Shown here: positions 1-16,881 of the stretch, one piece after another
Layout: every line of letters starts with the position of its first letter
How positions within the stretch are numbered: the stretch's first letter is position 1
NCBI GenBank assembly: GCA_017998095.1
Contig: JAGODU010000090.1
Location: forward strand, 1-16,881
Source of the DNA: Prolixibacteraceae bacterium
Lineage (GTDB): Bacteria > Bacteroidota > Bacteroidia > Bacteroidales > Prolixibacteraceae
Direction: 5' to 3'
Length of the DNA stretch: 16,881 bases
The notes under the pieces: generated by a model
The model's database searches: none
What the model saw: only the letters and a program-made list of their open reading frames with translations
What the model was told of the DNA's origin: nothing
Position numbers and translations under genes: made by a program

Positions 1-1
1 T

Positions 2-1327: not shown

Positions 1328-1381
1328 CCTCAGACAATTGAAATATCTCTAAAAAATTCTTTCAGAGAGTTCAGCATAAAA

Positions 1382-2574: not shown

Positions 2575-2668
2575 AATGAAAAATGAATGTGCAAAATAAA
2601 TAAATTATTCAATACCATTCCAAATGTGAACATTATCTTTTACTTAATTAGCCTTTACTGTTAAATGA

Positions 2669-2698: not shown

Positions 2699-2724
2699 CA
2701 AAATCAAAATCTATTTATATAGAA

Positions 2725-3534
2725 ATGGAAAAGAAAAAGGTATTGTTTGTTTTTCAGGAAATCACTCCTTATCTCCCCGAAACCGAAAAATCTATTATTG
2801 GCCGATACCTTCCACAAGGAATTCAGGAAAGAGGAAAAGAAATAAGAACGTTCATGCCCAGATACGGATGTGTTAACGAACGCCGTAATCAGTTACATGA
2901 AGTTATACGTCTTTCGGGAATGAATCTTGTGATTAATGATACAGACCATCCTCTGATAATAAAAGTTGCTTCAATCCAAGCAGCTAGAATGCAGGTATAT
3001 TTCATTGACAATGAAGATTATTTCCATCGAAAGTTTGTCATAACGGATAAAAATGAAGAACCTTTTGATGATAATGATGAACGTGCAATATTCTTTGCTC
3101 GAGGTGTACTTGAAACAGTTATTAAATTAAGGTGGGCTCCGGATCTTATACATTGTAACGGTTGGTTTGGTGCTATCGTTCCTATTCTGATAAAAAAGAC
3201 TTTTGCAAATGATCCTTTGTTCATTAATTCTAAAGTTATACTATCTGTTTATGATGATGAGTTTAATACTCCATTAGACGTTAATATAGCAAAGAAGGTA
3301 CTAAATGAAGAAATAAGAAAAGATGATGTAAAAGTCCTTGAGAATCCAACATATGCAAGCTTATACAAACTTGGTATTCAATATGCAGACGGAATTGTTA
3401 TGGGAAGTCCAAAAGTAAGTTCTGAAGTAGGAAAGATTATTAGTGAATGCGGAAAACCTGTTCTTGAATATACTGATCAGGAAACATATATAGACGCTTA
3501 CAATGATTTTTATGATAAAATTTTAAATAATTAA
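2725..3534 (+). CDS. Glycogen/starch synthase N-terminal domain-like protein (degenerate GT5)
   Basis: The 269-residue protein begins MEKKKVLFVFQEITPY, which resembles the first strand of the GT5 glycogen synthase N-terminal domain. Later blocks fit too: IRTFMPRYG (usual VRVLLPRY), VYFIDNEDYFHR (usual FIDnp.yF.R), ERAIFFARGVLE, DLIHCNGWFGAIVP (usual DVVHaHDWhTa) and YADGIVMGSPKVS (usual aDavtTVSPtYa). The KTGGL ADP-glucose loop is replaced by PETEKSII, and the second GT-B half, about 200 residues with the nucleotide-binding and E-x7-E regions, is absent. Glycogen synthase activity by this protein alone is therefore doubtful. Bacteroidota genomes often carry such a short gene beside panC, so it is probably a stable family and not a fresh truncation. 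The start at 2725 is chosen over 2665 because the promoter lies between them. A terminator directly follows. The real role is unknown. Confidence 0.85.
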   Translation: MEKKKVLFVFQEITPYLPETEKSIIGRYLPQGIQERGKEIRTFMPRYGCVNERRNQLHEVIRLSGMNLVINDTDHPLIIKVASIQAARMQVYFIDNEDYFHRKFVITDKNEEPFDDNDERAIFFARGVLETVIKLRWAPDLIHCNGWFGAIVPILIKKTFANDPLFINSKVILSVYDDEFNTPLDVNIAKKVLNEEIRKDDVKVLENPTYASLYKLGIQYADGIVMGSPKVSSEVGKIISECGKPVLEYTDQETYIDAYNDFYDKILNN

Positions 3535-3541
3535 ATAATTT

Positions 3542-3571
3542 AAAAAGAGAGTTTTGTACTCTCTTTTTTTT
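3542..3571 (+). terminator. Rho-independent terminator after the GT5-like gene
   Basis: AGAGAG (3546-3551) pairs with CTCTCT (3559-3564) around a 7-base loop, and flanking A and T runs extend the stem. The T-tract runs to 3571. It lies 8 bases past the stop and separates this gene from glmS, whose start is only about 40 bases further on. Confidence 0.85.
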
Positions 3572-3611
3572 ATATAATAATAACAAAAAAAATACACTAA
3601 CCTTACTAATT

Positions 3612-5456
3612 ATGTGCGGAATCGTTGGATATATCGGATCAAAAAATGCATGGCCAATATTGATAAAAGGATTAAAAAGACTTGAATACAGAGGTTATGA
3701 CTCTGCAGGAGTAGCTATTTATCACAATAACAAACTTGATGTTTATAAGAAAAAAGGCAAAGTCAGTGAGCTGGAAAATTATTGCGAAGACAAAGATCTT
3801 TGCGGAACAATAGGTATTGCCCATACAAGATGGGCAACTCACGGAGAACCCAATGATATAAACGCTCACCCGCATGTTTCAATGCAGGGACTTTTCACAA
3901 TTATCCATAATGGTATTATTGAAAATTACGATCGCCTTAAAACTGACCTATCTGCAAGAGGATATACTTTTAAAACCGAAACTGATACTGAAGTGCTGGC
4001 AAATCTGATAGAATACATGTATTGCAAAGGCGATCATGTAAATGCTGAACTTGCTGTCAGAATGGCCCTTTCAAGAGTTGTTGGAGCATACGGACTGGTT
4101 GTTATGTGCAAAAATGAACCCGAGCAATTGATAGCAGCCCGAAAAAGTAGTCCGCTTGCAATTGGTATTGGTAACAATGAGTACTTCCTTGCTTCAGATG
4201 CTACCCCAATGATCGAGTACACTAAAAATGTTGTATATCTGGACGATCATAATGTTGCAATTATTACAAAAAACAGCTTCACTTTAAAAACTGTAGCTGA
4301 TGATACCGAACTTACTCCTGTAATTCAAAAACTGGAATTAAGTGTTGGGGAAATTGAAAAGAACGGCTATGATCATTTCATGCTAAAAGAAATTTTCGAT
4401 CAGCCTAAAACAATAACTGATTCATTTAAAGGAAGAATTGATCCTGAAACTAAAGAAATTGTATTGGGAGGGCTCACTGATGTCATGCCTCGTATTGCTG
4501 ATGCAAAAAGAATTGTAATAATTGCTTGCGGAACTTCATGGCATGCAGCTCTTATTGGGGAATATCTTATTGAAGAATATGCCCGCGTGCCAGTTGAAGT
4601 TGAATATGCTTCAGAATACAGATACCGAAGACCTATAATAAATGAAGACGATGTTGTGCTTGCAATAAGTCAGAGTGGTGAAACTGCTGACACTCTTGCT
4701 GCTATACGTTTAGCAAAAGAAAAAAGGGCACTGGTACTTGGAATATGTAATGTAGTTGGCTCAAGCATTGCCCGCGAAACTGATGCAGGAGTATATACTC
4801 ATGCAGGTATTGAAATAGGAGTAGCTTCTACCAAAGCTTTTACAGCTCAGGTTACTGTTCTTATTCTCTTTGCTATGAGGCTTGCAAGAAAGAAAGGAAC
4901 ACTAAATGATGAAAGATATTTTTCAATAATAAATGATCTAATTGATGTTCCTGAAAAAATAAAGACTATTCTATTTTCTCACTTACACATTAAAGAAATC
5001 GCGCAAAAATATTCTGACAATATTAATGCCCTTTACTTAGGTCGTGGTTCCCTTTTCCCCGTTGCACTTGAAGGCGCCTTAAAGCTCAAAGAAATATCTT
5101 ATATTCATGCCGAAGGATATGCTGCAGGTGAGATGAAACACGGTCCAATAGCATTGGTAGACACCAATCTTCCGGTTATCGTTGTTGCTGCAAAAGATAG
5201 ATATTATGAAAAGATTGTCAGTAACATACAAGAAGTTAAAGCAAGAAAGGGAAATATAATCGCTGTAGTCACAGAAGGCGATAATGAATTGAGGAATATG
5301 GTTAAAGATATATTTGAAATACCTAAATCTGATCCGGTTGTTACACCTCTTGTTGCAATTATTCCTTTACAACTTTTTGCTTATTACCTTGCAATTCATA
5401 GAGGATGTGATGTAGACCAGCCAAGAAATCTGGCTAAATCGGTAACAGTGGAATAA
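3612..5456 (+). CDS. glmS: Glutamine-fructose-6-phosphate aminotransferase (isomerizing) GlmS
   Basis: GlmS turns fructose-6-phosphate and glutamine into glucosamine-6-phosphate and glutamate, the entry step to UDP-GlcNAc for peptidoglycan and lipid A. The 614-residue protein has the standard length. It starts MCGIVGYIG, so the exposed Cys after Met removal is the Ntn glutaminase nucleophile. RGYDSAGVA, AHTRWATHGEPN, HNGIIENY and the ETDTEVLANLIE segment complete the class II amidotransferase domain (about 2-220). Two SIS sugar-isomerase domains follow, at about 290-430 (ACGTSWHAALIGEY, ISQSGETADTLAA) and 460-600 (GRGSLFPVALEGALKLKEI, HAEGYAAGEMKHGPIAL). The C-terminus DQPRNLAKSVTVE is canonical. 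No glmS ribozyme fits in the 40-base leader, as expected outside Gram-positives. No clear TAnnTTTG box is seen there, so the promoter remains unassigned. Confidence 0.99.
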   Translation: MCGIVGYIGSKNAWPILIKGLKRLEYRGYDSAGVAIYHNNKLDVYKKKGKVSELENYCEDKDLCGTIGIAHTRWATHGEPNDINAHPHVSMQGLFTIIHNGIIENYDRLKTDLSARGYTFKTETDTEVLANLIEYMYCKGDHVNAELAVRMALSRVVGAYGLVVMCKNEPEQLIAARKSSPLAIGIGNNEYFLASDATPMIEYTKNVVYLDDHNVAIITKNSFTLKTVADDTELTPVIQKLELSVGEIEKNGYDHFMLKEIFDQPKTITDSFKGRIDPETKEIVLGGLTDVMPRIADAKRIVIIACGTSWHAALIGEYLIEEYARVPVEVEYASEYRYRRPIINEDDVVLAISQSGETADTLAAIRLAKEKRALVLGICNVVGSSIARETDAGVYTHAGIEIGVASTKAFTAQVTVLILFAMRLARKKGTLNDERYFSIINDLIDVPEKIKTILFSHLHIKEIAQKYSDNINALYLGRGSLFPVALEGALKLKEISYIHAEGYAAGEMKHGPIALVDTNLPVIVVAAKDRYYEKIVSNIQEVKARKGNIIAVVTEGDNELRNMVKDIFEIPKSDPVVTPLVAIIPLQLFAYYLAIHRGCDVDQPRNLAKSVTVE

Positions 5457-5487
5457 AAACATTATTTTAAAATATTCTTGTATATGT

Positions 5488-5524
5488 AAAAAAGAAATGG
5501 CATCCATCCAGGATGCCATTTCTT
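5488..5524. terminator. Convergent bidirectional terminator between glmS and the GH3 gene
   Basis: A perfect 14-bp stem (5492-5505 with 5511-5524) closes a 5-base loop and contains GGCATCC/GGATGCC. On the minus strand a run of six T follows (5493-5488), so it is a strong terminator for the GH3 gene. On the plus strand the T-tract is weak (TTTCTTAAT), so termination of glmS may be less efficient. Confidence 0.88.
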
Positions 5525-5541
5525 AATATCTTAATTCCAAA

Positions 5542-8166
5542 TTAATGTATATAGTAAGGTTTTCCTGTCAATGTTACCTTTTGATTAACTCCTCCTTTAT
5601 AGTTGGGGAGTGGCTGTTGCCCACCTAAATATAGTGTCACATTACCAGGCTGAACAACTCTCTTGTTCTCATCATCTATTACTGATAATTGCTTTGGGAG
5701 AAGTTCAAACTCAACTGTCCTTTTTTCTCCCGGGTTAAGTTTTATCCTTTTAAACCCTTGCAAAGAATGTATTGGAACAGGTACTGCTGAATCATCAATT
5801 TTAACATACAGCTGAACTACTTCATCACCTTTTCGTGTTCCTGTATTCTCAACGTCTACTGAAACTTTTATTTTTCCTGAAGTAGGTGAAGATGGAATTA
5901 CCATTAGATTATTATAACTGAAAGTTGTGTAACTCAAGCCAAATCCAAAGGGATAAAGAGCTTCTCCCCTGAAATATCGGTATGTCCTTCCTTCCATGTC
6001 GTAATTTGAAAAATCAGGTAAATCATTTACTGATTTATAAAAAGTTACAGGAAGCCTTCCTGCTGGATTATAATCACCAAACAAAACATCTGCAATAGCT
6101 GTACCACCTTCCTGTCCCGGATACCATGCCTGAAGTATTGCATCCAGATTTTCATCTTCCCAGTTAAGTGCTACTGCACTACCACTCATATTAACAAGTA
6201 TTACCGGTTTCCCAAGACTTTTAAGTTTCTTTAATGTATTGGTCTGCACTGCAGGTAAATCAATCTTTGTACGATCCCCTCCATCAAAACCATCAAAAGA
6301 AACAGGCATTTCTTCTCCTTCCAAAGCAGCAGACAAGCCTCCAAAATAAACAATAACATCACATTTAGCTGCTTCTTTAAAATACTGATCTTTTACTCCT
6401 TCCATTAATCTCAACCATTTTAACTGAGCAACTGCACCATGTTCAGCCTGGAAATATTCTATTTTAATGTCATATTCTGTCTTTGCTTTCAAATCGACAA
6501 CAAACTTGCCTTCTATAGGACCATGTTCTTTCCATTCATCAATTACAAGTTTATTATCAAACCATATTCTATATCCGTCATCTCCGGTGAAAGAAATTAC
6601 ATATTTCCCTGTCACTCCTGGAATCAATTTACCAGTCCATCTTATAGAAATATTCTGTGGGTTAATCTTTTCATGAAATCCTGAACCGTCCCAAACCATG
6701 TTAATCTTCCTGTCAATTCTGGTCACAACCGGCTCTCCCTCAAGGTTTTTATTGTTAAAATACTCTCCCTTGATGCCATTGACACCATCAGCCATAAGAT
6801 TATCACGTGTTATATTTTCAGGTATAGGATCATCATTTACCAATGAAGAAACATCGTTATGATATATTTTAACGTTTTTACCAAGCTTCTTTTCTATTCC
6901 TTCAAGAGGAGTTACATACTTAGAAGGAAATCCATTATAATTAGCATACATAACAACCGGATCATTCGAATTAGGTCCTAATACAGCTATTGATTTAATA
7001 TCCTTACTCAATGGCAAAATATTGTCCCTGTTTTTCAATAAAGTCATTGTTTCTCTGGCGACTTCAGCTGATAACTCTCTGTGTTCTTCAGAATCATTAA
7101 CTGAATAAGGAATATTATCATACGGATTTTTACCTGCAGGATCAAACATTCCAAGCTTCATACGGGCAGTAAATAAACGCTTAACTGCCTTATCAATGTA
7201 TTTTTCTGTCAACAACCCTCTTTCAACAGCTTCCTTCAGGTAATTATATGTTCTGCCACATTCAAGGTCACAACCGTTTAATACTCCAATAGCTGCTGCT
7301 TCTGCTCCGGTAGGTACAATCTTATGGTTTAAATATATATCATCAATTGCTCCACAATCAGAAACAACATATCCATCAAAACCCCATTGTTCTCTCAAAA
7401 TCTTATTTAAAAGAGTGTCGCTGCCACTGCATGACTCTCCACGAAAACGATTATATGCACCCATCAGCGAATAAGCTTTGGCTTCTTTGATTGTTGCCTC
7501 AAAAGCAGGCATATATGTATCCAGAAAATCTCTTTCAGATACATCTACGTTAAAAACATGACGATCTTTTTCAGGTCCACTATGAACCACATAATGCTTT
7601 GGAGTGGCTACTGTCTTTAAATAATCCGGATTGTCACCCTGAAGCCCTTTTACAAATGCCACACCCAAACGAGAAGTCAGGTATGGATCTTCTCCATAAG
7701 TTTCTTGTCCTCTTCCCCATCTTGGATCCCTGAAAATATTAATATTTGGTGACCAGACTGTCAATCCTTTATATCTTTGCCTTTCACCCTTTTTGATATA
7801 ATCGTTATACTTAGCTCTAAACTCATCGGAAATGACATTAGCTTCAACTAATAAAAGACTGTCATTAAATGTGGCAGCAACTCCAATAGCCTGCGGAAAA
7901 ACAGTTGCAACACCTGCTCGGGCTACCCCGTGCAATCCTTCATTCCACCAGTTATATTCAGGAATACCAAATCTTTCAATTGGTGCAGCAACATCCATCA
8001 TTTGAGATATTTTTTCTTCCAGCGTTAACTGAGAAACCAGGTTGTCAACCCTTTTCTCTATAGAAAGAGTTGGATCTTTCCAACTGTCAGAATTCATGCA
8101 ACCTGTAAACAGCAAAATCATAATAGCCGGAATAATCCATGCTTTAAAAAAGTCTTTTTTACTCAT
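5542..8166 (-). CDS. Glycoside hydrolase family 3 beta-glycosidase lipoprotein with PA14 insert
   Basis: This 874-residue enzyme should release terminal beta-linked sugars from oligosaccharides at the cell envelope. A signal peptide ends in LLFTGC with Cys23 as lipidation site. The GH3 TIM barrel (about 35-340) has YNWWNEGLHGVARAG (70-84), RDPRWGRGQETYGEDP (146-161), the KH pair Lys190-His191 and the nucleophile Asp270 in VVSDCGA. The second alpha/beta domain (about 370-460 and 590-740) is split by a PA14 domain at about 465-585 (FTGDDGYRIWFDN, YFQAEHGAVAQLKW). A C-terminal Fn3-like domain ends the protein. The NEGLHG motif and overall order resemble the xylosidase/arabinofuranosidase and BglX-like branches, so the exact substrate is not settled from sequence. 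It is not next to a SusCD pair or other glycan genes here. No clear promoter is seen in the 240 bases upstream. Confidence 0.93.
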   Translation of the reverse strand: MSKKDFFKAWIIPAIMILLFTGCMNSDSWKDPTLSIEKRVDNLVSQLTLEEKISQMMDVAAPIERFGIPEYNWWNEGLHGVARAGVATVFPQAIGVAATFNDSLLLVEANVISDEFRAKYNDYIKKGERQRYKGLTVWSPNINIFRDPRWGRGQETYGEDPYLTSRLGVAFVKGLQGDNPDYLKTVATPKHYVVHSGPEKDRHVFNVDVSERDFLDTYMPAFEATIKEAKAYSLMGAYNRFRGESCSGSDTLLNKILREQWGFDGYVVSDCGAIDDIYLNHKIVPTGAEAAAIGVLNGCDLECGRTYNYLKEAVERGLLTEKYIDKAVKRLFTARMKLGMFDPAGKNPYDNIPYSVNDSEEHRELSAEVARETMTLLKNRDNILPLSKDIKSIAVLGPNSNDPVVMYANYNGFPSKYVTPLEGIEKKLGKNVKIYHNDVSSLVNDDPIPENITRDNLMADGVNGIKGEYFNNKNLEGEPVVTRIDRKINMVWDGSGFHEKINPQNISIRWTGKLIPGVTGKYVISFTGDDGYRIWFDNKLVIDEWKEHGPIEGKFVVDLKAKTEYDIKIEYFQAEHGAVAQLKWLRLMEGVKDQYFKEAAKCDVIVYFGGLSAALEGEEMPVSFDGFDGGDRTKIDLPAVQTNTLKKLKSLGKPVILVNMSGSAVALNWEDENLDAILQAWYPGQEGGTAIADVLFGDYNPAGRLPVTFYKSVNDLPDFSNYDMEGRTYRYFRGEALYPFGFGLSYTTFSYNNLMVIPSSPTSGKIKVSVDVENTGTRKGDEVVQLYVKIDDSAVPVPIHSLQGFKRIKLNPGEKRTVEFELLPKQLSVIDDENKRVVQPGNVTLYLGGQQPLPNYKGGVNQKVTLTGKPYYIH

Positions 8167-8409
8167 AACTAAGCATTATTATTTTTCAATTTCTAATCTT
8201 GACTATCATCAAAACAGTCATTTAGAAAACTAAATATAAGTAAAATAAATGTAGCATATTAGTTATAATCATGCATTTTGAATAAGTTTTGTAACAAAGA
8301 AAAATTGAAAATCAATAATATGACTTTGATTATATTTCATGAAACATGTGTTATATTTTTGAGCCAGGAATTTAATTTAACACATTCGAAGAACTGAACA
8401 CGAATAACT

Positions 8410-8438
8410 AAAAAAGCCGAAATGAATCGGCCTTTTTT
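8410..8438. terminator. Bidirectional terminator of the original tRNA-Val gene
   Basis: Stem AGCCGA/TCGGC with a 6-base loop, flanked by six A (8410-8415) and six T (8433-8438), with one bulged C. It lies 5 bases past the tRNA 3' end on the minus strand, so before the element inserted it would have ended the tRNA-Val transcript. Confidence 0.75.
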
Positions 8439-8443
8439 ATATG

Positions 8444-8490
8444 TGGGTTGTACTGGATTCGAACCAGTGACCCCTACCCTGTCAAGGTAA
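8444..8490 (-). tRNA. 3' half of tRNA-Val(GAC), not functional here; attachment-site end of the element
   Basis: Read on the minus strand, this stretch has the anticodon stem TTACC/GGTAG around the loop TTGACAG (8479-8485) with anticodon GAC. Next come the 5-base variable loop GGGTC, a 5-bp T-stem ACTGG/CCAGT around TTCGAAT (8452-8468), the acceptor 3' strand ACAACCC and the discriminator A (8444). Position and sequence match the 3' half of bacterial tRNA-Val(GAC). The acceptor 5' strand and the D-arm are not found upstream on that strand; the DNA past 8491 does not fold that way. A 3' tRNA fragment directly before an integrase gene is the usual sign of a site-specific insertion in the tRNA. 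The core would be the anticodon stem-loop (inverted TACC/GGTA around the 7-base loop). CCA is not encoded. The intact gene should be to the right of the window. Confidence 0.85.
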
Positions 8491-8592
8491 TTACCATGTT
8501 AAAAACAGAAATCAAGAGAAAATATATATCATTGTTTTACTGCTACTTAATTCATTTTATAATTAATTGTTTTCTCTTCTTTTACTCTTTTA

Positions 8593-8623
8593 TTGTTACT
8601 TTTTGTTACTCGTTTGTTACTCG
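8593..8623 (+). repeat. Three phased TTGTTACT repeats upstream of int
   Basis: TTGTTACT occurs at 8593-8600, 8603-8610 and 8614-8621. The last two belong to a perfect 11-bp tandem repeat, TTTGTTACTCG at 8602-8612 and 8613-8623. The 10- and 11-base spacing puts the copies on one face of the helix. Lying about 110 bases from the att core and just before int, they could be arm-type integrase sites or operators for int; the sequence does not decide which. Confidence 0.5.
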
Positions 8624-8638
8624 TATGAGTTTTATTAT

Positions 8639-8646
8639 TACATTTG
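8639..8646 (+). promoter_or_regulatory. -7 box of the int promoter
   Basis: TACATTTG matches the Bacteroidota TAnnTTTG box and lies 27 bases before the int start codon. A TTTG at 8613-8616, inside the last tandem repeat, is 22 bases upstream, slightly far for a -33 element. If it is used, any protein bound to the repeats would block this promoter. Confidence 0.5.
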
Positions 8647-8673
8647 AAACCAACAACATAACTAGAGAAAATA

Positions 8674-9828
8674 ATGAGTGAAAAGGCACAAAAAAAGGTC
8701 AAAAAAGGCACAAAAAAAAACAATATTGTAATAAGAGAGAAGGTATTAGCCAATGGAAGCATTAGTTTATACCTTGATATTTACCGGGATGGAGAACGTT
8801 CTTATGAATTTTTAAAACTTTACATCAACCCAAAAGCACGTAATCCGATTGATAAAGAACAGAACAGATCAAATTATGAATTGGCTAATCGGATTAGAAC
8901 AGACCGAGAAAATGAGTTAAACAATCTTGCCTTTGATTATATCCCACCAACCAAACAAAAAGTTTTATTCTTTGATTTCGCCAAATATTATCAAGATAAT
9001 TACACAAAAAAGGACCTTGCAATGGTGAAAGGGGCAATTAACGATTTTAGAAGGTTTATCACAGAAAAATATCCATACATTAAAACAGAATCTCTTAAAG
9101 TAAATCAAATAGACAGAATAATGGTAGTGCGGTTTGTTGAGTTTTTGCAAGATAACCACACTGGGGAGGGTGCAAATTCTTATTATAGCAGATTAAAAAA
9201 AATACTTAATCATGCTGTTGCCCAAAACATTATTTCAAAAAGCCCGGCACAGAAAAAAGAACCGGGCGACATGGAAGTAACTTGTAAAAAGCCCTCCGGG
9301 TTGAGGAAACAAATACTTACTAATGAAGAAATACAATTGATAGCAAAGACTAAAACAAAACACCCGGAAACAAAGAAAGCGTTTCTATTCTGCCTTTGCA
9401 CTGGATTAAGGTTTGTAGATGTCAAGGCTTTAAAATTCTCAAATATTGACTTTTCAACAGATCGGATGCAAATTGATCAGCAAAAAACAGGTAGGCCTGT
9501 AATAATTGACCTTAATAAAACTGCTTTAAAACTAATTGGTGAACCGGGCAACCCTGAAGTATTGGTTTTTGATTTGCCAGAAAGGAAATGGGCAACAAAA
9601 ATAATCACAAAACTTGTAAAGGAGGCTGGAATACAAAAGCATATTACATGGCATTGTGCTCGTCACAGTTTGGCAGTGAATCTTTTAACAAGCAAGGAAA
9701 AACCCGATATAAAAACAGTAAGTAGTATTCTAGGCCACCAATCAACCAAAACAACCGAGGTGTATCTACATGTTGTGGATGAACTAAAAAAGAAAGCTGT
9801 TAATGCATTACCTGACTATGAATTATAA
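8674..9828 (+). CDS. int: Tyrosine recombinase/integrase of the element
   Basis: The integrase inserts and excises the element by strand exchange at the tRNA-Val site. The 384-residue protein has an arm-binding domain (about 18-92), a SAM-like core-binding domain (about 96-195, with the segment SYYSRLKKILNHAVAQ) and a catalytic domain (about 210-380). All catalytic residues are visible: Arg246 in CTGLRFVDV, Lys271 in QQKTGRP, His327 and Arg330 in WHCARH, His355 in LGHQS and nucleophile Tyr364 in EVYLHV. The architecture is that of the common Bacteroidota element integrases. The N-terminus is very Lys-rich and coded by runs of A, including nine in a row at 8712-8720. It reads away from the att site and is followed 10 bases later by the next gene, probably in the same transcript. 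The start at 8674 agrees with the -7 box upstream. Confidence 0.96.
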   Translation: MSEKAQKKVKKGTKKNNIVIREKVLANGSISLYLDIYRDGERSYEFLKLYINPKARNPIDKEQNRSNYELANRIRTDRENELNNLAFDYIPPTKQKVLFFDFAKYYQDNYTKKDLAMVKGAINDFRRFITEKYPYIKTESLKVNQIDRIMVVRFVEFLQDNHTGEGANSYYSRLKKILNHAVAQNIISKSPAQKKEPGDMEVTCKKPSGLRKQILTNEEIQLIAKTKTKHPETKKAFLFCLCTGLRFVDVKALKFSNIDFSTDRMQIDQQKTGRPVIIDLNKTALKLIGEPGNPEVLVFDLPERKWATKIITKLVKEAGIQKHITWHCARHSLAVNLLTSKEKPDIKTVSSILGHQSTKTTEVYLHVVDELKKKAVNALPDYEL

Positions 9829-9838
9829 ATAAAAACCC

Positions 9839-10744
9839 ATGCAAAAGTATAGTATAGAAAGTATAAAAGAAGCTTATTCTGATATTTCAGAAGTAATAAT
9901 TTCTCTTGATGAAGAAGGGAAAGTAGTCTTAAGTTTAAAAAAGGAAATTGTCGAGTATATTAAAGGCTTGCCTTTGCGTAGTCAAATAAGTGCATATCGT
10001 GAACTAATAAATCTATATAATGATGGATTTATATCTGAAACATACTTAAAAGACTATTTCCCCAAAATCTCATTTAATAACTATTTCAATTCCTTTTTAA
10101 ATACTGTAAAGAGTGAAATAGATATTGAAATAATCTTTGAGGATTACAAAAGCATTGAAAAAATAAAGTCGAAGTTAAGTACTCTTGTTAAAAAAGATGA
10201 AAAGATAAATTTCTTATTAATCCTTAAGAATAATTTTGAGGGCGACTTTTCTAAAGAAGTAAATGATAATCTGAAAAATGATTCAGTTTATCTTTTTATA
10301 AAGAAAGAATTAAAGTTTTGGAAGAATTATAAAGAAATTAATGATAATGAGAGTAAAATAGAAATACACCCCAGAATTAAAACCAACCTCACAATCGACC
10401 AGCGTGGTCAACTTTTTGACTTATTAAAAAGTGGTGGGTTTATTACGGATGAGTATAGAGATTATTTCAACTGGGCTATTGGTACAAATGATGAGAAAGA
10501 GCCGAGTCTACCAGGGCAATGGAAGCCAATAAAATGGCTAAAAACAAAATCCTTACTCGCATACTTTGTGAATGAATTCAACTTAAAAATATTGGGCAAT
10601 ATACGTGTCCAATGGAAACCATTTGAATTAATATTCAATACAACCAATTTACGAGGATCCAAAAACGATTGGGAAAAAACAGGAGATTTACCTAAAAGGT
10701 ACGAACAAATTGAAAATATAATAAATAAAATAGACAGCAAATAA
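9839..10744 (+). CDS. Unnamed protein downstream of integrase
   Basis: I do not assign a named family. The 301-residue protein is soluble, charged and mostly helical, with no signal peptide or membrane segment. Two parts can be told apart. Residues about 1-165 are Lys/Glu-rich. Residues about 180-275 are a more compact module with LTIDQRGQLFDLLKSGGFI, PIKWLKTKSLLAYFVNEFN and VQWKPFELIF. From memory, that second pattern (a short stretch saying whether the cell can afford a lookup, then a W-L-K-x-K-x-L-L-A-Y-F helix) recurs in small proteins beside integrases of Bacteroidota mobile elements, which suggests an accessory role in recombination or regulation. It lies 10 bases after int and ends at a strong terminator, so int and this gene form one unit. 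No catalytic signature is visible. Confidence 0.8.
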   Translation: MQKYSIESIKEAYSDISEVIISLDEEGKVVLSLKKEIVEYIKGLPLRSQISAYRELINLYNDGFISETYLKDYFPKISFNNYFNSFLNTVKSEIDIEIIFEDYKSIEKIKSKLSTLVKKDEKINFLLILKNNFEGDFSKEVNDNLKNDSVYLFIKKELKFWKNYKEINDNESKIEIHPRIKTNLTIDQRGQLFDLLKSGGFITDEYRDYFNWAIGTNDEKEPSLPGQWKPIKWLKTKSLLAYFVNEFNLKILGNIRVQWKPFELIFNTTNLRGSKNDWEKTGDLPKRYEQIENIINKIDSK

Positions 10745-10768
10745 TAAAGATTTTTACAATATTTATTC

Positions 10769-10822
10769 AACCCCTACAATACCCATTAATGGGCAATTGT
10801 AGGGGTTCTTATTTTTCTTTAT
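10769..10822 (+). terminator. Strong terminator ending the int unit
   Basis: A perfect 12-bp outer stem pairs 10769-10780 with 10796-10807 (AACCCC/GGGGTT at its base), and an inner 5-bp stem CCCAT/ATGGG sits above a small asymmetric bulge. A T-rich tail (CTTATTTTTCTTTATTT) follows. It separates the int unit from the replication block. Confidence 0.85.
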
Positions 10823-10862
10823 TTCTCATCTTCGGCCTATGTTATAACAAAAGTTAACAGGG

Positions 10863-10887
10863 AAAGGGGTGCACACCTGAACCCTTT
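10863..10887 (+). promoter_or_regulatory. Hairpin in the leader of the HTH gene
   Basis: AAAGGG (10863-10868) can pair with CCCTTT (10882-10887). The enclosed part contains GGTGCACACC, which can fold into its own 4-bp hairpin by using bases of the first arm. It lies 26 bases before the HTH start codon. It could be an operator, an attenuator or nothing. No consensus -7 box is seen in this leader. Confidence 0.3.
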
Positions 10888-10913
10888 TAATAATCTTATA
10901 AAATCAAATTATC

Positions 10914-11225
10914 ATGAAAGATAAAGAATTTTCAATAACTGAATACTTAGAGAGAATAGACGAAAGGCAACAGAACATTGAAAAGTTATTACTCTCACAA
11001 AAGAATGTTCTAACATTTGATGAAGCAGCCGAGTTCATTGGAATAAGCAAAAGTCACTTGTATAAGCTAACAATGTGCAATTCCTTACCCTTTTACAGAC
11101 CCCGTGGAAAAATGATTTACATGGATCGGGTGGAACTTGAAAACTGGTTATTACAAAACCGTATCACTCCGGCGGATGAGATTGAAGTAAAAGCCTCAAC
11201 TTATTCAGTATTAAATAAGAAGTAA
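10914..11225 (+). CDS. Helix-turn-helix DNA-binding protein, excisionase-like (HTH_17 type)
   Basis: The 103-residue protein has a charged helical N-terminus (about 6-28, coiled-coil-like, with ERIDERQQNIEKLLLSQ). It is followed by a MerR/excisionase-like winged helix at about 31-82: LTFDEAAEFIGISKSHLYKLT, then PFYRPRGKMIYMDRVELENWL. The F-x-R-x-x-G-K-x-I-Y wing and the D-x-x-x-L-E-x-W-L helix are the hallmarks of this family. Such proteins are standard in Bacteroidota mobile elements, where they direct excision, act as regulators or bind the origin. It is the first gene after the strong terminator and lies 141 bases before the helicase gene. Which of these roles it has cannot be read from the sequence. 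Confidence 0.9.
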   Translation: MKDKEFSITEYLERIDERQQNIEKLLLSQKNVLTFDEAAEFIGISKSHLYKLTMCNSLPFYRPRGKMIYMDRVELENWLLQNRITPADEIEVKASTYSVLNKK

Positions 11226-11241
11226 GAAAATATTTAATAAC

Positions 11242-11340
11242 GGGCAATGTGTTTGTGGTGTATTCGGGGTTAAATCATTTTGAAATATTGGACTCCATCC
11301 TATGTTTAAAAATATAATATTGCCCAAAAATACCACAAAC
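11242..11340 (+). other. Two interleaved inverted repeats in the leader of the helicase gene
   Basis: GGGCAATGT (11242-11250) is complementary to ATATTGCCC (11317-11325), 9 bp with one G-U. The next bases, GTTTGTGGTGT (11251-11261), are complementary to ATACCACAAAC (11330-11340), 11 bp with one G-U. The arms come in the order A, B, A', B', so the two hairpins cross. In RNA this is pseudoknot topology or a choice between two folds; in DNA it could be two pairs of protein sites. It fills most of the 141-base gap before the helicase start at 11367. Confidence 0.5.
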
Positions 11341-11366
11341 CATTTTCCCAAAATAATCATATAGAA

Positions 11367-12848
11367 ATGAATACTTCTAATATTCAATTCGATTTTAAAA
11401 AGTTTAATATCGAACCTGAGGATATAAAATCTGAAAAAGATAAACTCTTAAAGAAATCCAAAGCTAGTCTCCATTCTGAGATATTGGATCTGTTAATACA
11501 ACAGTTAAAACCTTTGGACTTCGAAGCGCTTGCAAACCCATATAATACTGAAAACTTCAAACTTAATAGCCGACATCTTTTAGTATTATCAATTGAGAAT
11601 ATTTTAAATGTAATGACAAATAATCATTGGGGATTATGCAAAAATCAAGACTTCATTTATTTGTATAATGGTGTTTTTTGGAAAGAAATTGACAAAGAAA
11701 CATTTCAAAAATTTTTGGGAGAAGCCTCTGAAAAATTGGGTGTTACAAAATTTACAGCGAGATATTACCAATTTAGAGAACAATTATTTAAACAATTTCT
11801 TGCAACTGCATATCTGCCAACACCTGAAAGTGATGAGGATAAAGTATTGATAAATTTGCTTAATGGAACTTTTGAGATAAGCTCAAAGGGTACGAAAATA
11901 AGACCATTTAATCAAATGGATTTTATTACCTATCAACTACCCTTTGAATATAATCCAACAGCAACAGCACCCCTATTTGATGCTTATTTAAACAGGGTAT
12001 TGCCTGACAAGAATAGTCAGAAAGTTTTATCAGAGTATTTGGGATATGTATTTTTAAAACATGGCAATAGTCTGAAACTTGAATCTGCCTTAATTCTTTA
12101 TGGACTGGGTGCGAACGGGAAAAGTGTATTTTTTGAAATTGTAAACGCACTATTGGGAAAAGATGCAACAAGTAGTTATTCACTACAGGAGCTAACAGAC
12201 AATACAGGATATTACCGGGCAATGATAGCCAATAAACTTGTAAACTATTCAAGTGAAATAAATGGAAAATTAGAGGTTGATATGTTCAAAAGAATGGTAT
12301 CAGGCGAAGTAATTCCGGCACGTCTGCCATACGGTAAACCTATGCAATTAACGCAATACGCAAAATTCATTTTTAATTGCAATGAACTGCCAAAAGACGT
12401 TGAATATACGAACGCATATTTCAGGCGTTGGATCATTATTCCTTTTAATGTTACAATACCAAAATCGGAGCAAGATACAGAACTGCATACCAAAATAATA
12501 AACAATGAATTATCAGGTGTATTTAATTGGGTACTTGGTGGATTAAAAAGGCTATTGGATCAGAAGCGTTTTACTGAATGTGATTCGATAAATAAAGCGT
12601 TGGAGAAATACAGAATTGAAAGTGATAGTATACAAATGTTTTTGAATGATGCAGGGTATAAAGTTTCATTAATCAACGATATTCCATTAAAAGAATTATT
12701 CAATGAATATAGATCCTATTGTATTGACAGTGGTTTTAAGTCATGTTCATTAAGAACATTTGCGGACAGATTAAGACATTCAGGCTATACGATTGAACGC
12801 AGGAACTTTGGCAATTCAATCGGAGCTGAAAAAATAAGTTTATTTTAA
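11367..12848 (+). CDS. SF3 (D5/P4-like) phage/plasmid replicative helicase
   Basis: The 493-residue protein should open and unwind the element's origin. The central region carries the superfamily 3 AAA+ helicase motifs: Walker A YGLGANGKS (245-253), a Walker B-like KLVNYSSEI with Glu297, sensor-1 FIFNCNELP with Asn337 to Glu340, and AYFRRW with arginine-finger candidates Arg353/354. Upstream of it, at about 65-190, is the D5_N-like helical region (LINLLNGTFEI, then the MDFITYQLPFEYNP run into the ATPase). The last 60 residues look like the winged-helix tail of P4-family proteins. There is no primase domain in this chain; the Toprim protein of the next gene probably supplies it. In phage P4 the three functions are fused in one protein. 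It is in line with the HTH gene and the Toprim gene, and the iteron-like array starts 2 bases after its stop. Confidence 0.93.
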   Translation: MNTSNIQFDFKKFNIEPEDIKSEKDKLLKKSKASLHSEILDLLIQQLKPLDFEALANPYNTENFKLNSRHLLVLSIENILNVMTNNHWGLCKNQDFIYLYNGVFWKEIDKETFQKFLGEASEKLGVTKFTARYYQFREQLFKQFLATAYLPTPESDEDKVLINLLNGTFEISSKGTKIRPFNQMDFITYQLPFEYNPTATAPLFDAYLNRVLPDKNSQKVLSEYLGYVFLKHGNSLKLESALILYGLGANGKSVFFEIVNALLGKDATSSYSLQELTDNTGYYRAMIANKLVNYSSEINGKLEVDMFKRMVSGEVIPARLPYGKPMQLTQYAKFIFNCNELPKDVEYTNAYFRRWIIIPFNVTIPKSEQDTELHTKIINNELSGVFNWVLGGLKRLLDQKRFTECDSINKALEKYRIESDSIQMFLNDAGYKVSLINDIPLKELFNEYRSYCIDSGFKSCSLRTFADRLRHSGYTIERRNFGNSIGAEKISLF

Positions 12849-12850
12849 AA

Positions 12851-12926
12851 CTACACTATCTACACTATCTACACAGAAAGTAAAATGATGACTTTAAAAT
12901 CAGTGTAGCAAGTGTAGTAAGTGTAG
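12851..12926. repeat. Inverted iteron array, three CTACAC facing three GTGTAG; origin candidate
   Basis: CTACAC stands at 12851-12856, 12860-12865 and 12869-12874. Its complement GTGTAG stands at 12903-12908, 12912-12917 and 12921-12926. Both triplets have an exact 9-base period, and they flank a 28-base AT-rich centre (12875-12902) that has its own AAAGT/ACTTT inverted pair. The three-base spacers are TAT on the left and CAA/TAA on the right, so only the hexamers are kept as complementary, which points to six protein sites more than to a simple hairpin. I find no other CTACAC near. It lies between the helicase and Toprim genes, as expected for a replication origin or copy-control region. Confidence 0.8.
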
Positions 12927-12948
12927 ATAAAAACAATAATTTATTTAT

Positions 12949-14220
12949 ATGAAAACTATACACAAATATATTTTGGAACCATATAACGGAATGAGAACTC
13001 GCTACAGTTGCCCTAATTGCAGTAAGGAAAAAACCTTTTCGTTATATATTGACACCGAAACAGGTGAGCACATACACCCCAACGTTGGCAGGTGCAATCG
13101 TGAAAGTAATTGCGGCTATCATTACACACCAAAACAATACTTCCATGATAACAACATTTCCTATGATGTTTCCCATCATGAAACATTTAAACCAAAAGTA
13201 GCTTTAACTCTATATAAACCTGTGTCTTTTATTCCAGTTGAAGTATTTAAAGGCAGTCTGAAATCATACCAAACAAACCACTTTGTAAATTTCTTGATTG
13301 ATCTCTTTGGGGATAAGATAACAAGTGAATTAGTGAGTAGCTATTTTATAGGAACATCAAATTATTGGGAAGGTGCAACAGTATTTTGGCAAATTGATAT
13401 CACCGGTAAAATAAGAACTGGTAAAATAATGCTTTATAACCCTGAAAATGGTAAAAGAGTAAAAGAACCTTTCAACCATATTCATTGGGCTCATAAACTT
13501 TTGTTCAAATCAGAATTTGAGTTAAAACAATGTTTATTTGGTGAACACCTTTTAATCAACAATACAAGACCTGTAGCAATAGTTGAAAGCGAAAAAACTG
13601 CAATTATTGCCAGCGTTTATCTACCTCAATTCGTATGGTTAGCTGTTGGCAGTCTTACCAACCTAAATATCGAAAAATGTAATGTTCTGAAAGGTAAACA
13701 AGTCATTTTATTTCCTGACTTAAAATGCTTTGACAAATGGAGGAACAAAGCTGAAGAACTTTCAAACATTGCAAATTTTCTAACTTCAGATTTATTGGAA
13801 CTAAAAGCTTCCTATGAAGAAAAAGAACAAGGTCTTGATATTGCTGACTACCTAATAAAATTTGATCTTCAAGAATTTGTTCAAGATAATTCACAGATTT
13901 CAGAAACTGAAGTTCATTCAATTGCTGACACTAATCAATCGAAAGAAAAAGAACAAAATAATTTTTTAACCCCTATCTCACATGAAGAATACTCATATAA
14001 TGAAAGTTGGGAAGAGGAAGTATTAGAACTTGATAATTTCTTTAAAAGTATTATTCTACCTACATATCCAATAAGGCTCAACAATTTTACTATGGTGACA
14101 GATGTTAATTTGTTTATACAAACCCACCTTGCTATAGTAGTTTCAAACATGGATAAACCTCGTTACAAACCTTATCTCATAAGATTGAAAGAATTAAAAA
14201 ATCATTTTATAAATAACTAA
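12949..14220 (+). CDS. Zinc-ribbon/Toprim primase-like protein (DUF6371-like)
   Basis: The 423-residue protein looks like a DnaG-type primase module that works with the helicase of the preceding gene. The N-terminus carries a CHC2-like zinc ribbon with Cys21, Cys24, Cys49 and Cys55 (YSCPNC, then GRCNRESNCGYH). A Toprim-like domain follows at about 205-305: VAIVESEKTAIIAS with the catalytic-type Glu213, WLAVGS, VILFPDLKCFDKW with Asp257 and Asp262, and the closing GLDIADYLI. In typical Toprim the last acidic pair is DxD; here the spacing is D-x4-D, so it may be divergent. The C-terminal 110 residues are acidic and unassigned. The order matches Bacteroidota DUF6371-type proteins as I remember them. 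The 100-base gap before it holds the iteron array; the next gene begins 12 bases after its stop. Confidence 0.85.
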   Translation: MKTIHKYILEPYNGMRTRYSCPNCSKEKTFSLYIDTETGEHIHPNVGRCNRESNCGYHYTPKQYFHDNNISYDVSHHETFKPKVALTLYKPVSFIPVEVFKGSLKSYQTNHFVNFLIDLFGDKITSELVSSYFIGTSNYWEGATVFWQIDITGKIRTGKIMLYNPENGKRVKEPFNHIHWAHKLLFKSEFELKQCLFGEHLLINNTRPVAIVESEKTAIIASVYLPQFVWLAVGSLTNLNIEKCNVLKGKQVILFPDLKCFDKWRNKAEELSNIANFLTSDLLELKASYEEKEQGLDIADYLIKFDLQEFVQDNSQISETEVHSIADTNQSKEKEQNNFLTPISHEEYSYNESWEEEVLELDNFFKSIILPTYPIRLNNFTMVTDVNLFIQTHLAIVVSNMDKPRYKPYLIRLKELKNHFINN

Positions 14221-14232
14221 AAATAAACCATT

Positions 14233-14637
14233 ATGGAAAAAGTTATAGCTTTTCAATGCCAGTATTGTGGCAAGCTTTACAACGAAAAAAGTAGTTGTAA
14301 ATCTCATGAGTATAGATGTTACTTTAACAGTCGTACTCGTAGTTGCGCAAGTTGTATATTTAATAAGCGAGAAACGCTAAGTTATCAAGAGGACAAGTCA
14401 GTAGTAGTAACTACTTGTCTAAAGAACAATGAAGTTTATCGGGGACTTAAAACAGCTTGTGAAGATTATCATTACAAAAGAGATAAATGTAATCTTGAAG
14501 AAATGAAGAAAATTAGAGCAGATTATGATCCTTACTTTGTTGTAAAGCCACTTCTTGATGAACTAAAGGGAAATAGCGAGTTAGAATTAAGTGAGATAAA
14601 AAAGTATATTGAAAATGAAATAATCCCTTATATATAG
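14233..14637 (+). CDS. Small Cys-rich zinc-binding protein of the replication block
   Basis: I do not recognise a named family. The 134-residue protein starts with a single zinc-finger-like unit, Cys9, Cys12, His25, Cys29 (QCQYCGKLYNEKSSCKSHEYRC), close to the classical C2H2 form with Cys in last place. A second possible metal site uses Cys38, Cys41, Cys62 and Cys76 (RSCASC, VTTCLKN, TACEDY). The remaining C-terminal part is helical and charged. Twelve bases separate it from the Toprim gene, and a terminator follows, so it is the last gene of the replication unit. A DNA-binding or partner-binding accessory role is an inference from the fingers and the position only. Confidence 0.8.
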   Translation: MEKVIAFQCQYCGKLYNEKSSCKSHEYRCYFNSRTRSCASCIFNKRETLSYQEDKSVVVTTCLKNNEVYRGLKTACEDYHYKRDKCNLEEMKKIRADYDPYFVVKPLLDELKGNSELELSEIKKYIENEIIPYI

Positions 14638-14694
14638 TATAATTAATCTTGCTTTATTTCTGACAATTTATCTTCTCATTATTCTATTTAAAGT

Positions 14695-14726
14695 AAACCT
14701 GTTGAGAAATCAATGGGTTTCTTTTT
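14695..14726 (+). terminator. Terminator ending the replication block
   Basis: AAACCTGTTGA (14695-14705) pairs with TCAATGGGTTT (14710-14720) through 11 pairs, two of them G-U, over a GAAA tetraloop. Five T follow (14722-14726). It lies between the convergent zinc-finger and AAA+ genes. Confidence 0.85.
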
Positions 14727-14736
14727 ATGCAGCTCT

Positions 14737-15831
14737 TTATTTAAAATATTCCTTAATCTCTTCATCATTTAAAGAAGGAGTCATATTTGAAATAACTGAT
14801 CCTAAAATATTTGTATCTATAATCGTTTCTCTTTCAATTGCTAATCGTGATGCTTCGTTTACTATGTACTCTATTTCAGCAAAAGTATAGTACTCTGTCA
14901 TTTCTCCAATAAACAACCATTTAATATTGGCATGAGGCCTTCCGTCAAGATGAATTTTGAATGCTTCTATTCTGGCTTCTAAGTCAGGTGTGCCAACAAA
15001 TATCTTTTTATCAAATCTCCCGGGTCGAAGAATTGCATTGTCAATATTTCTTAAATAGTTTGTCGTTCCTACAACAAAGATTCCTTTTTTATTGCATTGA
15101 TCTAACTGTGTCAGGAATTCATTCACTTCTGATTTATAATGAAAGGACACATCTGAATTCGTTCTATTTGGTACTAATGCTTCAATTTCATCTATAAGGA
15201 GTAATGTAGGACTGTTTTTTGCCGCCTCCTCAAATAGTCGCTTGATTTCAATTTGAGTTCCATGAACATATGTACTACCAATATCAGCCGGAGATATCTC
15301 CATGTATTTCATTCCAATCTGTTCAGATAATTTCCTTGCAATAAATGTTTTTCCACATCCAGGAGGTCCATATAGAATTATTCCGTTTGGTAATGGGACC
15401 TTGAATTTCTTATAAATATCTCTCTCATTAAATAAAAGAATTACATCTCTTTCAAAGATTGTTTTTAATTCGTGCATCCCGGCAACACCTTTCCATTTTT
15501 TTGAAGTGTTTTTTGGAGCTGAAATCATCTTATCGTTGAGAAGCCAATAGTAATGTTTTTTAAAGTACTCTTTATAAGCTAAAGCGTTTGAGTTTTCAGG
15601 ATACAATTCACACTCAAGGCAAATAAAGGCTAAGGCTTCCCGATACATTTCCCATTCTATCAGTAGACGTATACGGTAATTATTTAAGAACCTAACAAAC
15701 TCTCTGTAGTAATCAACATATAATCCCTTATCAATTTCACTAATCAATTTACTTATCAGCCAAATTGCTTCTGCCTTCCTTCTTCGATAGACAGATGATT
15801 GAATCTTTTCCGGAATTTGAAATCGTTCCAT
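14737..15831 (-). CDS. AAA+ ATPase, Cdc48/spastin-like, with helical N-terminal domain
   Basis: The 364-residue protein is a ring-type AAA ATPase of the classical clade. The ATPase core (about 112-300) has Walker A GPPGCGKT (155-162), pore-loop candidate STYVHG with Tyr188, Walker B LLIDEIEAL with Asp214-Glu215, sensor-1 Asn258 in GTTNY and the second region of homology ILRPGRFDKKI with arginine fingers at about 269 and 272. The small helical lid follows (TFAEIEYIVNEASRLA). The N-terminal 110 residues are helical, with a TPR-like stretch (YREALAFICLECELYPENSNAL). There is no protease or nuclease domain, so it probably remodels or unfolds a partner. It is 32 bases downstream of the small membrane protein gene on the same strand, and the two may work together. 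Single AAA proteins of this type occur as cargo in mobile elements, in part with defence roles; here that is an inference. Confidence 0.92.
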   Translation of the reverse strand: MERFQIPEKIQSSVYRRRKAEAIWLISKLISEIDKGLYVDYYREFVRFLNNYRIRLLIEWEMYREALAFICLECELYPENSNALAYKEYFKKHYYWLLNDKMISAPKNTSKKWKGVAGMHELKTIFERDVILLFNERDIYKKFKVPLPNGIILYGPPGCGKTFIARKLSEQIGMKYMEISPADIGSTYVHGTQIEIKRLFEEAAKNSPTLLLIDEIEALVPNRTNSDVSFHYKSEVNEFLTQLDQCNKKGIFVVGTTNYLRNIDNAILRPGRFDKKIFVGTPDLEARIEAFKIHLDGRPHANIKWLFIGEMTEYYTFAEIEYIVNEASRLAIERETIIDTNILGSVISNMTPSLNDEEIKEYFK

Positions 15832-15863
15832 TTATCTACATTTTCATTTTATTTGCCGGCTAC

Positions 15864-16232
15864 TCAAAAAAATGTAAACTGAATTATTCCATTCATAATT
15901 AAAAGGGTATATGCAACTATTATGCCTGTTATATCACCTAATAAATATGGCAAGTCGTTATGTCCATCCTTTAATCGTTTAATATCATTAAAAATTGTCG
16001 GAATTGCAACAATTATGACTAAAAACAATGGAAGTTGGAATTTGAATAATTTAAAAATTAAATGAGCTATCATTAAACCAGCAAAGTTGCAAAAAGCACT
16101 ATTACCAAAATTAATCAAATGTCTAATACCAAATTTGATATATAAAAATGAAAGCGGAGTTAAAATAAATGGTGCAATATTTACAACAATTAAAAAAACA
16201 ACAATTCCAATTAAATATGCTAATACAATCAT
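15864..16232 (-). CDS. Small integral membrane protein of unknown function
   Basis: The 122-residue protein has about four hydrophobic segments, roughly 1-31, 45-63, 65-81 and 92-120. A polar turn (DIKRLKDGHNDLPYLLGD, about 82-100) stands before the last segment. No enzyme motif or known family is recognised. It lies between the lipoprotein and AAA+ genes on the same strand, with about 30 bases on either side, so the three may form one operon. Base use is very AT-rich like its neighbours. The hydrophobic pattern and the conserved spacing make it a real gene, but nothing in it tells what it does. Confidence 0.7.
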   Translation of the reverse strand: MIVLAYLIGIVVFLIVVNIAPFILTPLSFLYIKFGIRHLINFGNSAFCNFAGLMIAHLIFKLFKFQLPLFLVIIVAIPTIFNDIKRLKDGHNDLPYLLGDITGIIVAYTLLIMNGIIQFTFF

Positions 16233-16262
16233 ATAAAAAGTTCTTGGTTTATGAGTGATATT

Positions 16263-16496
16263 TTAATTATAACAATATCTACAAGGTTTACGATTTCTAT
16301 TAATTGCTTCTTCTTTTGTAATCTTTTTAATATCACTACTACATCTTCTTAATCCCTCACAATGAGATGATTTATGGTATGATTTTGATTTCGGCCCAGT
16401 ACATATGTAAACATCTTTTGAAAAAGAATCACTACACCCAACTATAAAAATAAGTGATATGATAACTAGTGTGTATTTTATAAAATTTATCTTCAT
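16263..16496 (-). CDS. Small Cys-rich lipoprotein with YHxxxxC-type metal-binding-like domain
   Basis: With the start at MKINF (16496) the protein has 77 residues. A lipoprotein signal peptide ends in FIVGC with Cys21 and Ser at +2. A longer frame reaches back to 16541, but that would place 15 extra polar residues before the signal peptide; the alternative ATG at 16499 differs by one residue only. The mature part is about 55 residues: VYICTGPKSKSYHKSSHC, then EGLRRC and a final RKPCRYCYN. This pattern (Y-H, spaced Cys, K-x-E-A-I, then R-x-P-C-x-x-C) is a small domain I have seen in many Bacteroidota proteins and that resembles the Ada-type zinc-binding fold; its function is not known. It is probably the first gene of the lipoprotein, membrane protein, AAA+ unit. 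Confidence 0.72.
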   Translation of the reverse strand: MKINFIKYTLVIISLIFIVGCSDSFSKDVYICTGPKSKSYHKSSHCEGLRRCSSDIKKITKEEAINRNRKPCRYCYN

Positions 16497-16637
16497 CATC
16501 CATTTTACTATAAACACATCATTTACGTTAAATATTTCCACAATAACTGAAAGTCATCATTACCATTTTAATCTATTTGGATACAGTAACAACAATAAGA
16601 TTTAATCTGCACTAATATACCAAATAATAATTATTCA

Positions 16638-16697
16638 GACTATAGTCCGTGGCTTAAATGTTTTTAATAATTCATTTTAGCTCTGACTAAAGTCAGA
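16638..16697 (+). promoter_or_regulatory. C-box-like palindromic operators before the controller gene
   Basis: GACTATAGTC (16638-16647) and GACTAAAGTC (16685-16694) share the form GACT-N2-AGTC and differ at one base. The second is extended to TCTGACT/AGTCAGA (16682-16697) and ends 3 bases before the start codon at 16701. The first continues as TATAGTCCGTG, the sequence common to operators of restriction-modification controller proteins such as C.Esp1396I. The starts are 47 bases apart. I infer self-regulation of the gene at 16701. Confidence 0.7.
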
Positions 16698-16700
16698 AAT

Positions 16701-16881
16701 ATGATAGCCCAAACTTTCGGTAATGTACTATGTGAATTGAGGAAAGAAAAGAATATTTCTCAAGAGAAACTTGCTGAATATTGTGATCTTGATCGAACTT
16801 ATATATCCTTATTAGAAAGAGGTCTTAGACAACCTACGCTAACTACAATTTTTAAAATTTCATCTGCTTTAAAAATCCGGC
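16701..16881 (+). CDS. XRE-family regulator, probable restriction-modification controller (C) protein, 3' end outside window
   Basis: Sixty residues are visible and the frame is open at the right edge; controller proteins usually have 75-100 residues, so little is missing. The part seen is one HTH_3 domain: FGNVLCELRKEKNISQEKLA, then DLDRTYISLLERGLRQPTL with recognition helix DRTYISLLERG and the start of helix 5 (TIFKISSALKI). The DRTYIS-x-x-ERG motif is very common in C proteins of type II restriction-modification systems. These delay the restriction enzyme until the methylase has protected the DNA. Upstream sits a matched pair of C-box-like palindromes. The ATG at 16701 is preferred because it follows the second palindrome directly; leaderless C transcripts are known. 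Restriction and methylase genes are expected to the right. A generic XRE repressor of the element is the alternative. Confidence 0.8.
   Translation, partial: MIAQTFGNVLCELRKEKNISQEKLAEYCDLDRTYISLLERGLRQPTLTTIFKISSALKIR

Follow-up and report, generated by a model that had tools for sequence, protein, structure and literature searches.

The window analysed here, a 16,881-nt stretch (positions 1 to 16,881) of contig JAGODU010000090.1 in assembly GCA_017998095.1 of a Prolixibacteraceae bacterium, holds part of an integrated mobile element that encodes a D5/P4-type helicase and a primase-like protein, and between the two genes lies a short inverted array of the hexamer CTACAC. This array is very probably a cis-acting replication origin of the element, or a cis replication region of the type called crr in phage P4, and it would be bound by the helicase itself. 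The reading draws on the layout and conservation of the array, the lack of pairing between its spacers, the covariation of the hexamer with a winged helix of the helicase, the natural exchange of both as a cassette, and a likeness in fold; from these we infer binding by the helicase, melting of the A/T elements, one helicase assembly per arm, and replication. The parts of the system are as follows.

11367-12848, plus strand: D5/P4-type helicase (D5_N, DUF5906, Pox_D5), proposed initiator
12627-12836, plus strand: C-terminal winged helix of the helicase (residues 421-490), proposed hexamer reader from fold prediction and covariation
12830-12846, plus strand: left A-tract/T-tract element, resembling an unwinding element; overlaps the final helicase codons, with a place that is fixed across arms
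12851-12874, plus strand: left arm, CTACAC at 12851-12856, 12860-12865 and 12869-12874, 9-bp pitch
12875-12902, no strand: centre between the arms, 28 bp, a length within one of the clusters seen in relatives
12903-12926, minus strand: right arm, CTACAC at 12903-12908, 12912-12917 and 12921-12926, 9-bp pitch
12931-12947, minus strand: right A-tract/T-tract element, mirroring its left counterpart, directly preceding the primase start codon
12949-14220, plus strand: primase-like protein (Zn_ribbon_16, DUF6371, DUF6965), not implicated in hexamer reading

The array and its conserved frame

CTACAC occurs three times on each strand with a 9-base period around a 28-base centre, exactly where the initial annotation had placed it (starts at 12851, 12860 and 12869 on the plus strand and at 12903, 12912 and 12921 on the minus strand). 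The array starts 2 bp past the helicase stop codon and ends 22 bp before the primase-like gene. The bare count of the hexamer is unremarkable, since 8 copies in the window stand against 3.56 expected and 11 of 200 shuffles contain at least 8. The arrangement is striking: the window array scores 6.0, and shuffles of homologous regions score at most 4.3, with 1 of 425 reaching 3.9.

Relatives of the helicase were collected by a profile search of species genomes, in which at least 524 were confirmed and the best 80 kept. The window, these 80 and 4 of 8 relatives from viral contigs make up a set of 85 loci, each cut at a flank of about 6 kb. Viral matches L204-L207 (about 30% identity), weak genome matches L218-L222, and L229, whose unit was ambiguous, were dropped. 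A single-protein search found no close relatives in viral contigs, and a class-wide genome search gave few matches (11 of 395). Hexamers were assigned by eye in 52 of the 85 loci, and automatic frame-free units serve as a check. Outside the Bacteroidota, helicase relatives were seen on contigs of Legionellales/Gammaproteobacteria (L157, L174, L175, L184 and L189) and in a Gracilibacteria metagenome-assembled genome (MAG; L166); several of these relatives have TGTCAC, CGTCAC or TTTCAC arms 5-7 kb upstream, and wrong binning is possible for the MAGs.

Around the helicase stop codon (-90 to +200), 9 is the best period in 51.2 of the 85 loci, ties being shared, whereas the values for control regions taken from those loci are 1.5 of 85, 9.8 of 82 and 6.2 of 82. 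When no unit is preset, inverted arrays scoring at least 3.9 are found at a pitch of 9 bp in 32 of 85 loci, against 0, 2, 1, 0 and 0 at 7, 8, 10, 11 and 12 bp. The 9-base period had been called unusual because it is shorter than a helical turn; it is the most constant feature of the array family. The proposal that such short iterons mark a P4-type origin or replication control site gains support from this pitch, which is kept across relatives while the spacers vary. The hexamer had been expected to stay constant as well, but it changes between elements: CTACAC, CTACAT, CGGCAC, AGTAAC, TTTCAC, TCGTCC and others occur in the set of 85 loci, and the 52 loci assigned by eye have 20 kinds. In 29 three-plus-three arrays (174 sites) the consensus is NNN[C/A]A[C/T], with A at position 5 in 167 sites, C at position 4 in 143 and A in 25, and C or T at position 6 in all 174; positions 1-3 and 7-9 are variable.

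Triplets of CTACACNNN were also seen in many viral contigs (L025, L079, L087 and others) whose fetched stretches do not encode such a helicase, and in some of them as back-to-back pairs about 85-125 bp apart. At least 120 viral stretches contain CTACACNNN three times, and the helicase is encoded in 2 of 120 loci among the matches listed, so that the bare triplet is not specific to the helicase. In these two loci the triplet lies 101 nt and 2 kb from the helicase, respectively.

Covariation and exchange with the helicase winged helix

The changes of the hexamer between elements go in step with the winged helix of the helicase. When distances between hexamers were compared with distances in windows along the helicase, the core (residues 61-400) being partialled out, the correlation reached 0.66 at residues 478-492, 0.66 at 475-489 and 0.61 at 472-486, and 0.40-0.45 in windows within 454-474. 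The median of the 153 helicase windows is 0.009, none of the top 15 starts before residue 427, and none of 1000 permutations reaches the peak. The automatic units peak at the same place of the helicase (0.56 in 45 loci; 0 of 1000 permutations). The primase-like protein, detected just downstream in 45 of the 52 unit-bearing loci and not detected in 7, is encoded equally near the array on its other side, and it finds no support as hexamer reader, its correlation being at most 0.13 (45 loci) or, with automatic units, 0.22 (37 loci).

The initial annotation had named three candidate binders: the helicase tail, a helix-turn-helix (HTH) protein of the element, and a zinc-finger protein. The first is supported by this covariation. 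The HTH protein finds no support as a general binder, with a maximum partial correlation of 0.011 in 19 windows (23 loci), against 0.67 for the helicase tail in the same loci. Nor does the zinc-finger protein, of which a relative was seen in 1 of 85 loci, namely the window itself. It is proposed from these sequence comparisons that the C-terminal winged helix reads the hexamer, which tracks neither the helicase core, nor the primase, nor the HTH protein. In fold prediction, the winged helix resembles the origin-binding domain of phage P4, the full-length helicase model being poor outside the tail (mean predicted local distance difference test score 48.8). RFX proteins are an example of winged-helix proteins that read DNA with the wing.

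A natural exchange is seen between Flavobacterium cyanobacteriorum (L121) and a Bacteroidetes MAG (L191). Their helicase cores are 98% identical and residues 454-492 are 12% identical, and the hexamer has switched between AGTAAC and CTACAC, in one direction or the other. At the DNA level, identity is 0.77-0.98 as far as about -240, falls to 0.57, 0.38, 0.27, 0.33 and 0.62 in successive 60-bp bins, and returns to 0.86-1.00 from +120; the breakpoints lie where the winged helix begins and within the first primase codons. Winged helix and array have been exchanged as one piece between these two loci. Among the 40 most core-similar pairs, those with at least three hexamer changes have a winged-helix identity of 0.12-0.24, except L169/L200 (0.58), L195/L200 (0.68) and three pairs with L133 (0.52-0.58); those with the same hexamer have 0.64-1.00, except L169/L195 (0.40). 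L121, whose own array is of CTACAC, retains a second pair of arms, made of AGTAAC, at -4845 and +1173 relative to its helicase stop, and this pair may be either a relic or a second specificity.

Proposed paired half-origins and competing explanations

A generic arm rule found a facing pair of arms in 53 of the 85 loci, a back-to-back pair in 3 and a same-strand pair in 4, and none in 85 shuffles. This rule and the pattern by which an A/T element is scored as present were devised after viewing the sequences, with shuffles and inner flanks as the sole controls. The facing arms are separated by 4-28 bp in 18 loci, 204-213 bp in 4, 939-1203 bp in 9 and 2.2-8.4 kb in 22, so that 35 of the 53 pairs are split by 0.2-8.4 kb. 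L121, L159, L181 and L187 are counted as far-split because the rule picks the best-matching pair, although they also carry a compact array. A unit-based rule adds eight loci with a compact three-plus-three array (L147, L152, L167, L169, L195, L197, L199 and L200), which brings the loci with a facing pair by either rule to 61 of 85. In 22 of the 35 split pairs the primase reading frame contains the right arm, whose coded triplet reads as a tripeptide repeat because 9 bp equal three codons. In the primase genes of L127-L130, L145, L191 and others, the coded arm was seen about 300 bp short of the frame's end.

Each arm tends to carry an A-tract followed by a T-tract at -21 to -5 before its first hexamer, with 0.4-1.5 bits per position in 103 distinct arms, against at most 0.31 bits on the inner flanks. 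The simple A/T pattern is present outside 85 of the 103 arms, inside none, and in 58 of 1700 random 30-mers. The AT content 15-20 bp outward of the arms is 94% on both sides, compared with a background of 59%; the left flank may partly reflect codons of the helicase tail, and the right flank shows the same signal. The AT-rich centre noted at first holds for the window (79%), but it does not appear to be a feature of the family: centres of at least 10 bp average 65% AT (n = 24), and the AT-rich stretches lie outside the arms. The gaps of compact arrays cluster at 4-7, 12-19, 27-28 and 31-35 bp, with a concentration R of 0.54 at 10.5 bp in a small and related sample of 31 non-duplicate arrays. 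This value is reached by 2 of 20000 jittered sets, and by 6 of 5000 after scanning periods of 8-14. Because the gaps cluster near a 10.5-bp step, it is suggested that the arms keep one face of the helix.

In the mechanism that we propose, each arm would be a half-origin, in which an openable outer A-tract/T-tract element is followed by three hexamers spaced at 9-bp pitch. The helicase encoded upstream would bind the hexamers through its own C-terminal winged helix, oligomerise across the two facing arms, open the flanking A/T tracts and load itself, and the adjacent primase-like protein could then prime. A GC-skew switch at the array was examined and gave nothing decisive.

Two sets of results weigh against this account. 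First, prediction of the hexamer from the nearest neighbour, which in 62 loci misses 0.84 of 6 bases by the winged helix, 1.66 by the core and 2.52 at random, is weaker in a hold-out of 10 new loci (1.8, 2.0 and 2.45, respectively). Two hold-out loci with a close winged-helix neighbour are predicted exactly, and in the other eight the winged helix (2.25) does worse than the core (1.75). For this extension 30 further loci were fetched, of which 16 had no assigned unit and 3 were duplicates. Second, 24 of 85 loci have no facing pair by either rule within flanks of about 6 kb, several of them holding a single arm; homologous elements with the same genes and no array, which the initial annotation had counted as evidence against its proposal, are thus found in part.

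It is unlikely that the array is instead an operator with no origin function, at which transcription is controlled by the HTH protein or autorepressed by the helicase. An HTH_17 protein is encoded upstream and the array stands in front of the primase gene, as an operator might, yet the hexamer does not track the HTH protein, relatives of which are found in 36 of 85 loci, and the many arms inside the primase gene or kilobases away would be oddly placed operators. Autoregulation by the helicase may exist on top of an origin role.

Less probable again is control of primase translation or of termination by an RNA hairpin within the helicase-primase transcript. The array fills the space ahead of the primase start, and its strand forms a favourable RNA fold (-28.4 kcal/mol, z -5.66, 0 of 200 shuffles). 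The first base of the window spacers does pair, contrary to the initial statement that only the hexamers are complementary. Across relatives no selected pairing is seen: in 29 arrays the spacers pair in 103 of 174 cases when nested and in 103 of 174 when shifted. A count by position, in which centre and spacer bases are mixed, puts nested pairing above shifted at two spacer positions (0.67 against 0.56 at position 7, 0.43 against 0.30 at position 8). A hairpin is also at odds with the kilobase separations of many facing pairs, the helical phasing of compact gaps and the shared A/T elements outside the arms, and Rfam has no match at the array. That the inverted arms are the terminal repeats of a small mobile unit cut by a recombinase is the least credible explanation, for although they face each other with outer A/T elements and are often kilobases apart, compact forms leave only 4-35 bp between them, many arms lie inside the primase gene, and the hexamer tracks a helicase domain and not a recombinase.

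Known systems and the surrounding element

Phage P4 (X51522) offers one of the closest counterparts. Its alpha protein is likewise a D5-family helicase with a C-terminal winged helix, its short iterons occur in both orientations, and crr follows the helicase gene directly at its 3' end. In both crr copies the annotated type 1 iterons are spaced 9 bp apart (4314/4323 and 4494/4503), the spacing on the other side being 18 bp, and an A-tract/T-tract stretch lies just outside the crr iterons, a pattern that also matches about ten other places in P4. By annotated positions, ori1 faces crr about 4.7 kb away. However, the iteron of P4 is TGTTCACC and not CTACAC, its ori1 iterons are 10-11 bp apart, crr is duplicated and irregular, the A/T stretch is 9-10 bp from the first iteron instead of 4, and the primase is fused in alpha (777 aa), whereas it is a separate gene here. 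The P4 replicon proper was rejected as identity of the system on account of the hexamer and of the helicase without primase fusion.

According to the passages cited here, origins of phage-inducible chromosomal islands (PICIs) have two iteron sets by the rep gene, recognised by the Rep C-terminal domain (PMC6092414, PMC7581432), and an AT-rich region between the sets (PMC6092414). Two sets are present here too, but the conserved A/T elements lie outside the arms. This likeness to PICIs, including the Staphylococcus aureus pathogenicity islands (SaPIs), is one of layout by description. The primase-helicase of SaPI5 is the only sequence match of the helicase in the PDB (E 5e-13). In the staphylococcal cassette chromosome mec (SCCmec), the C-terminal domain of Cch2, a helicase of the same broad kind, is described as binding a 23-bp direct-repeat stretch just downstream of its own gene, with three 5-nt iterons AAGTG (CACTT on the other strand) (PMC7581432). 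From this description we infer a pitch compatible with 9 bp, since three 5-mers occupy 23 bp. SCCmec differs in that a single triplet was found there; the cited part of that work reports no facing second arm, counts just three iterons and notes that further factors may be required (PMC7581432).

The kind of system is already known because of these precedents in P4, PICIs and SCCmec Cch2. What appears new is the facing layout together with its cassette exchange: no report of the array or its family, of a facing half-origin rule, an outer A/T element or an exchange cassette was found in the open-access literature, subscription journals being mostly outside the search. As a tentative generalization, held with slightly more doubt than confidence, P4-type origins may be bipartite in general. 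They would consist of two movable facing half-origins, each with an A/T element and three sites at 9-bp pitch seating one helicase assembly, which are either fused (4-35 bp, with increments close to one helical turn) or separated by kilobases, even within the primase gene. Specificity would reside in hexamer and winged helix, which would be swapped between elements as a cassette of some 300 bp and so create new compatibility groups, and P4 ori1/crr and the lone SCCmec triplet would be instances. For systems such as the latter, the rule predicts a second facing triplet with an A/T element. Self-loading D5-type helicases are common to satellites, resistance and pathogenicity islands and large DNA viruses, and how they find and open origins is poorly known. 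Together, the numerous natural combinations of winged helix and hexamer form data from which a recognition code could be derived; the cassette exchange, in turn, shows a way in which these elements may alter their compatibility.

The helicase of the window has 493 aa and matches D5_N (2.7e-12), DUF5906 (4.8e-17) and Pox_D5 (3.1e-5) in Pfam, as well as PHROG primase/helicase families; no primase domain was found in it. The element also encodes a tyrosine integrase, the HTH_17 protein, and two proteins without a Pfam match. No packaging or capsid-hijacking genes were matched among the element genes in the window, the far end of the element lying outside it. The 3' half of a tRNA gene was seen at 8447-8497 on the minus strand, just before the integrase gene. 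It is probably an attachment half-site; no whole tRNA gene was found in the window, beyond which the other end of the element lies. An AAA+ ATPase encoded at 14737-15831 (minus strand) matches the IetA anti-phage model (6.9e-29), and no match to its partner IetS was found among the proteins tested. The integrase gene is followed by a gene for a 301-aa protein (9839-10744) with no match in Pfam, PHROG or PADLOC, and its relatives occur in 3 of 85 loci, itself included.
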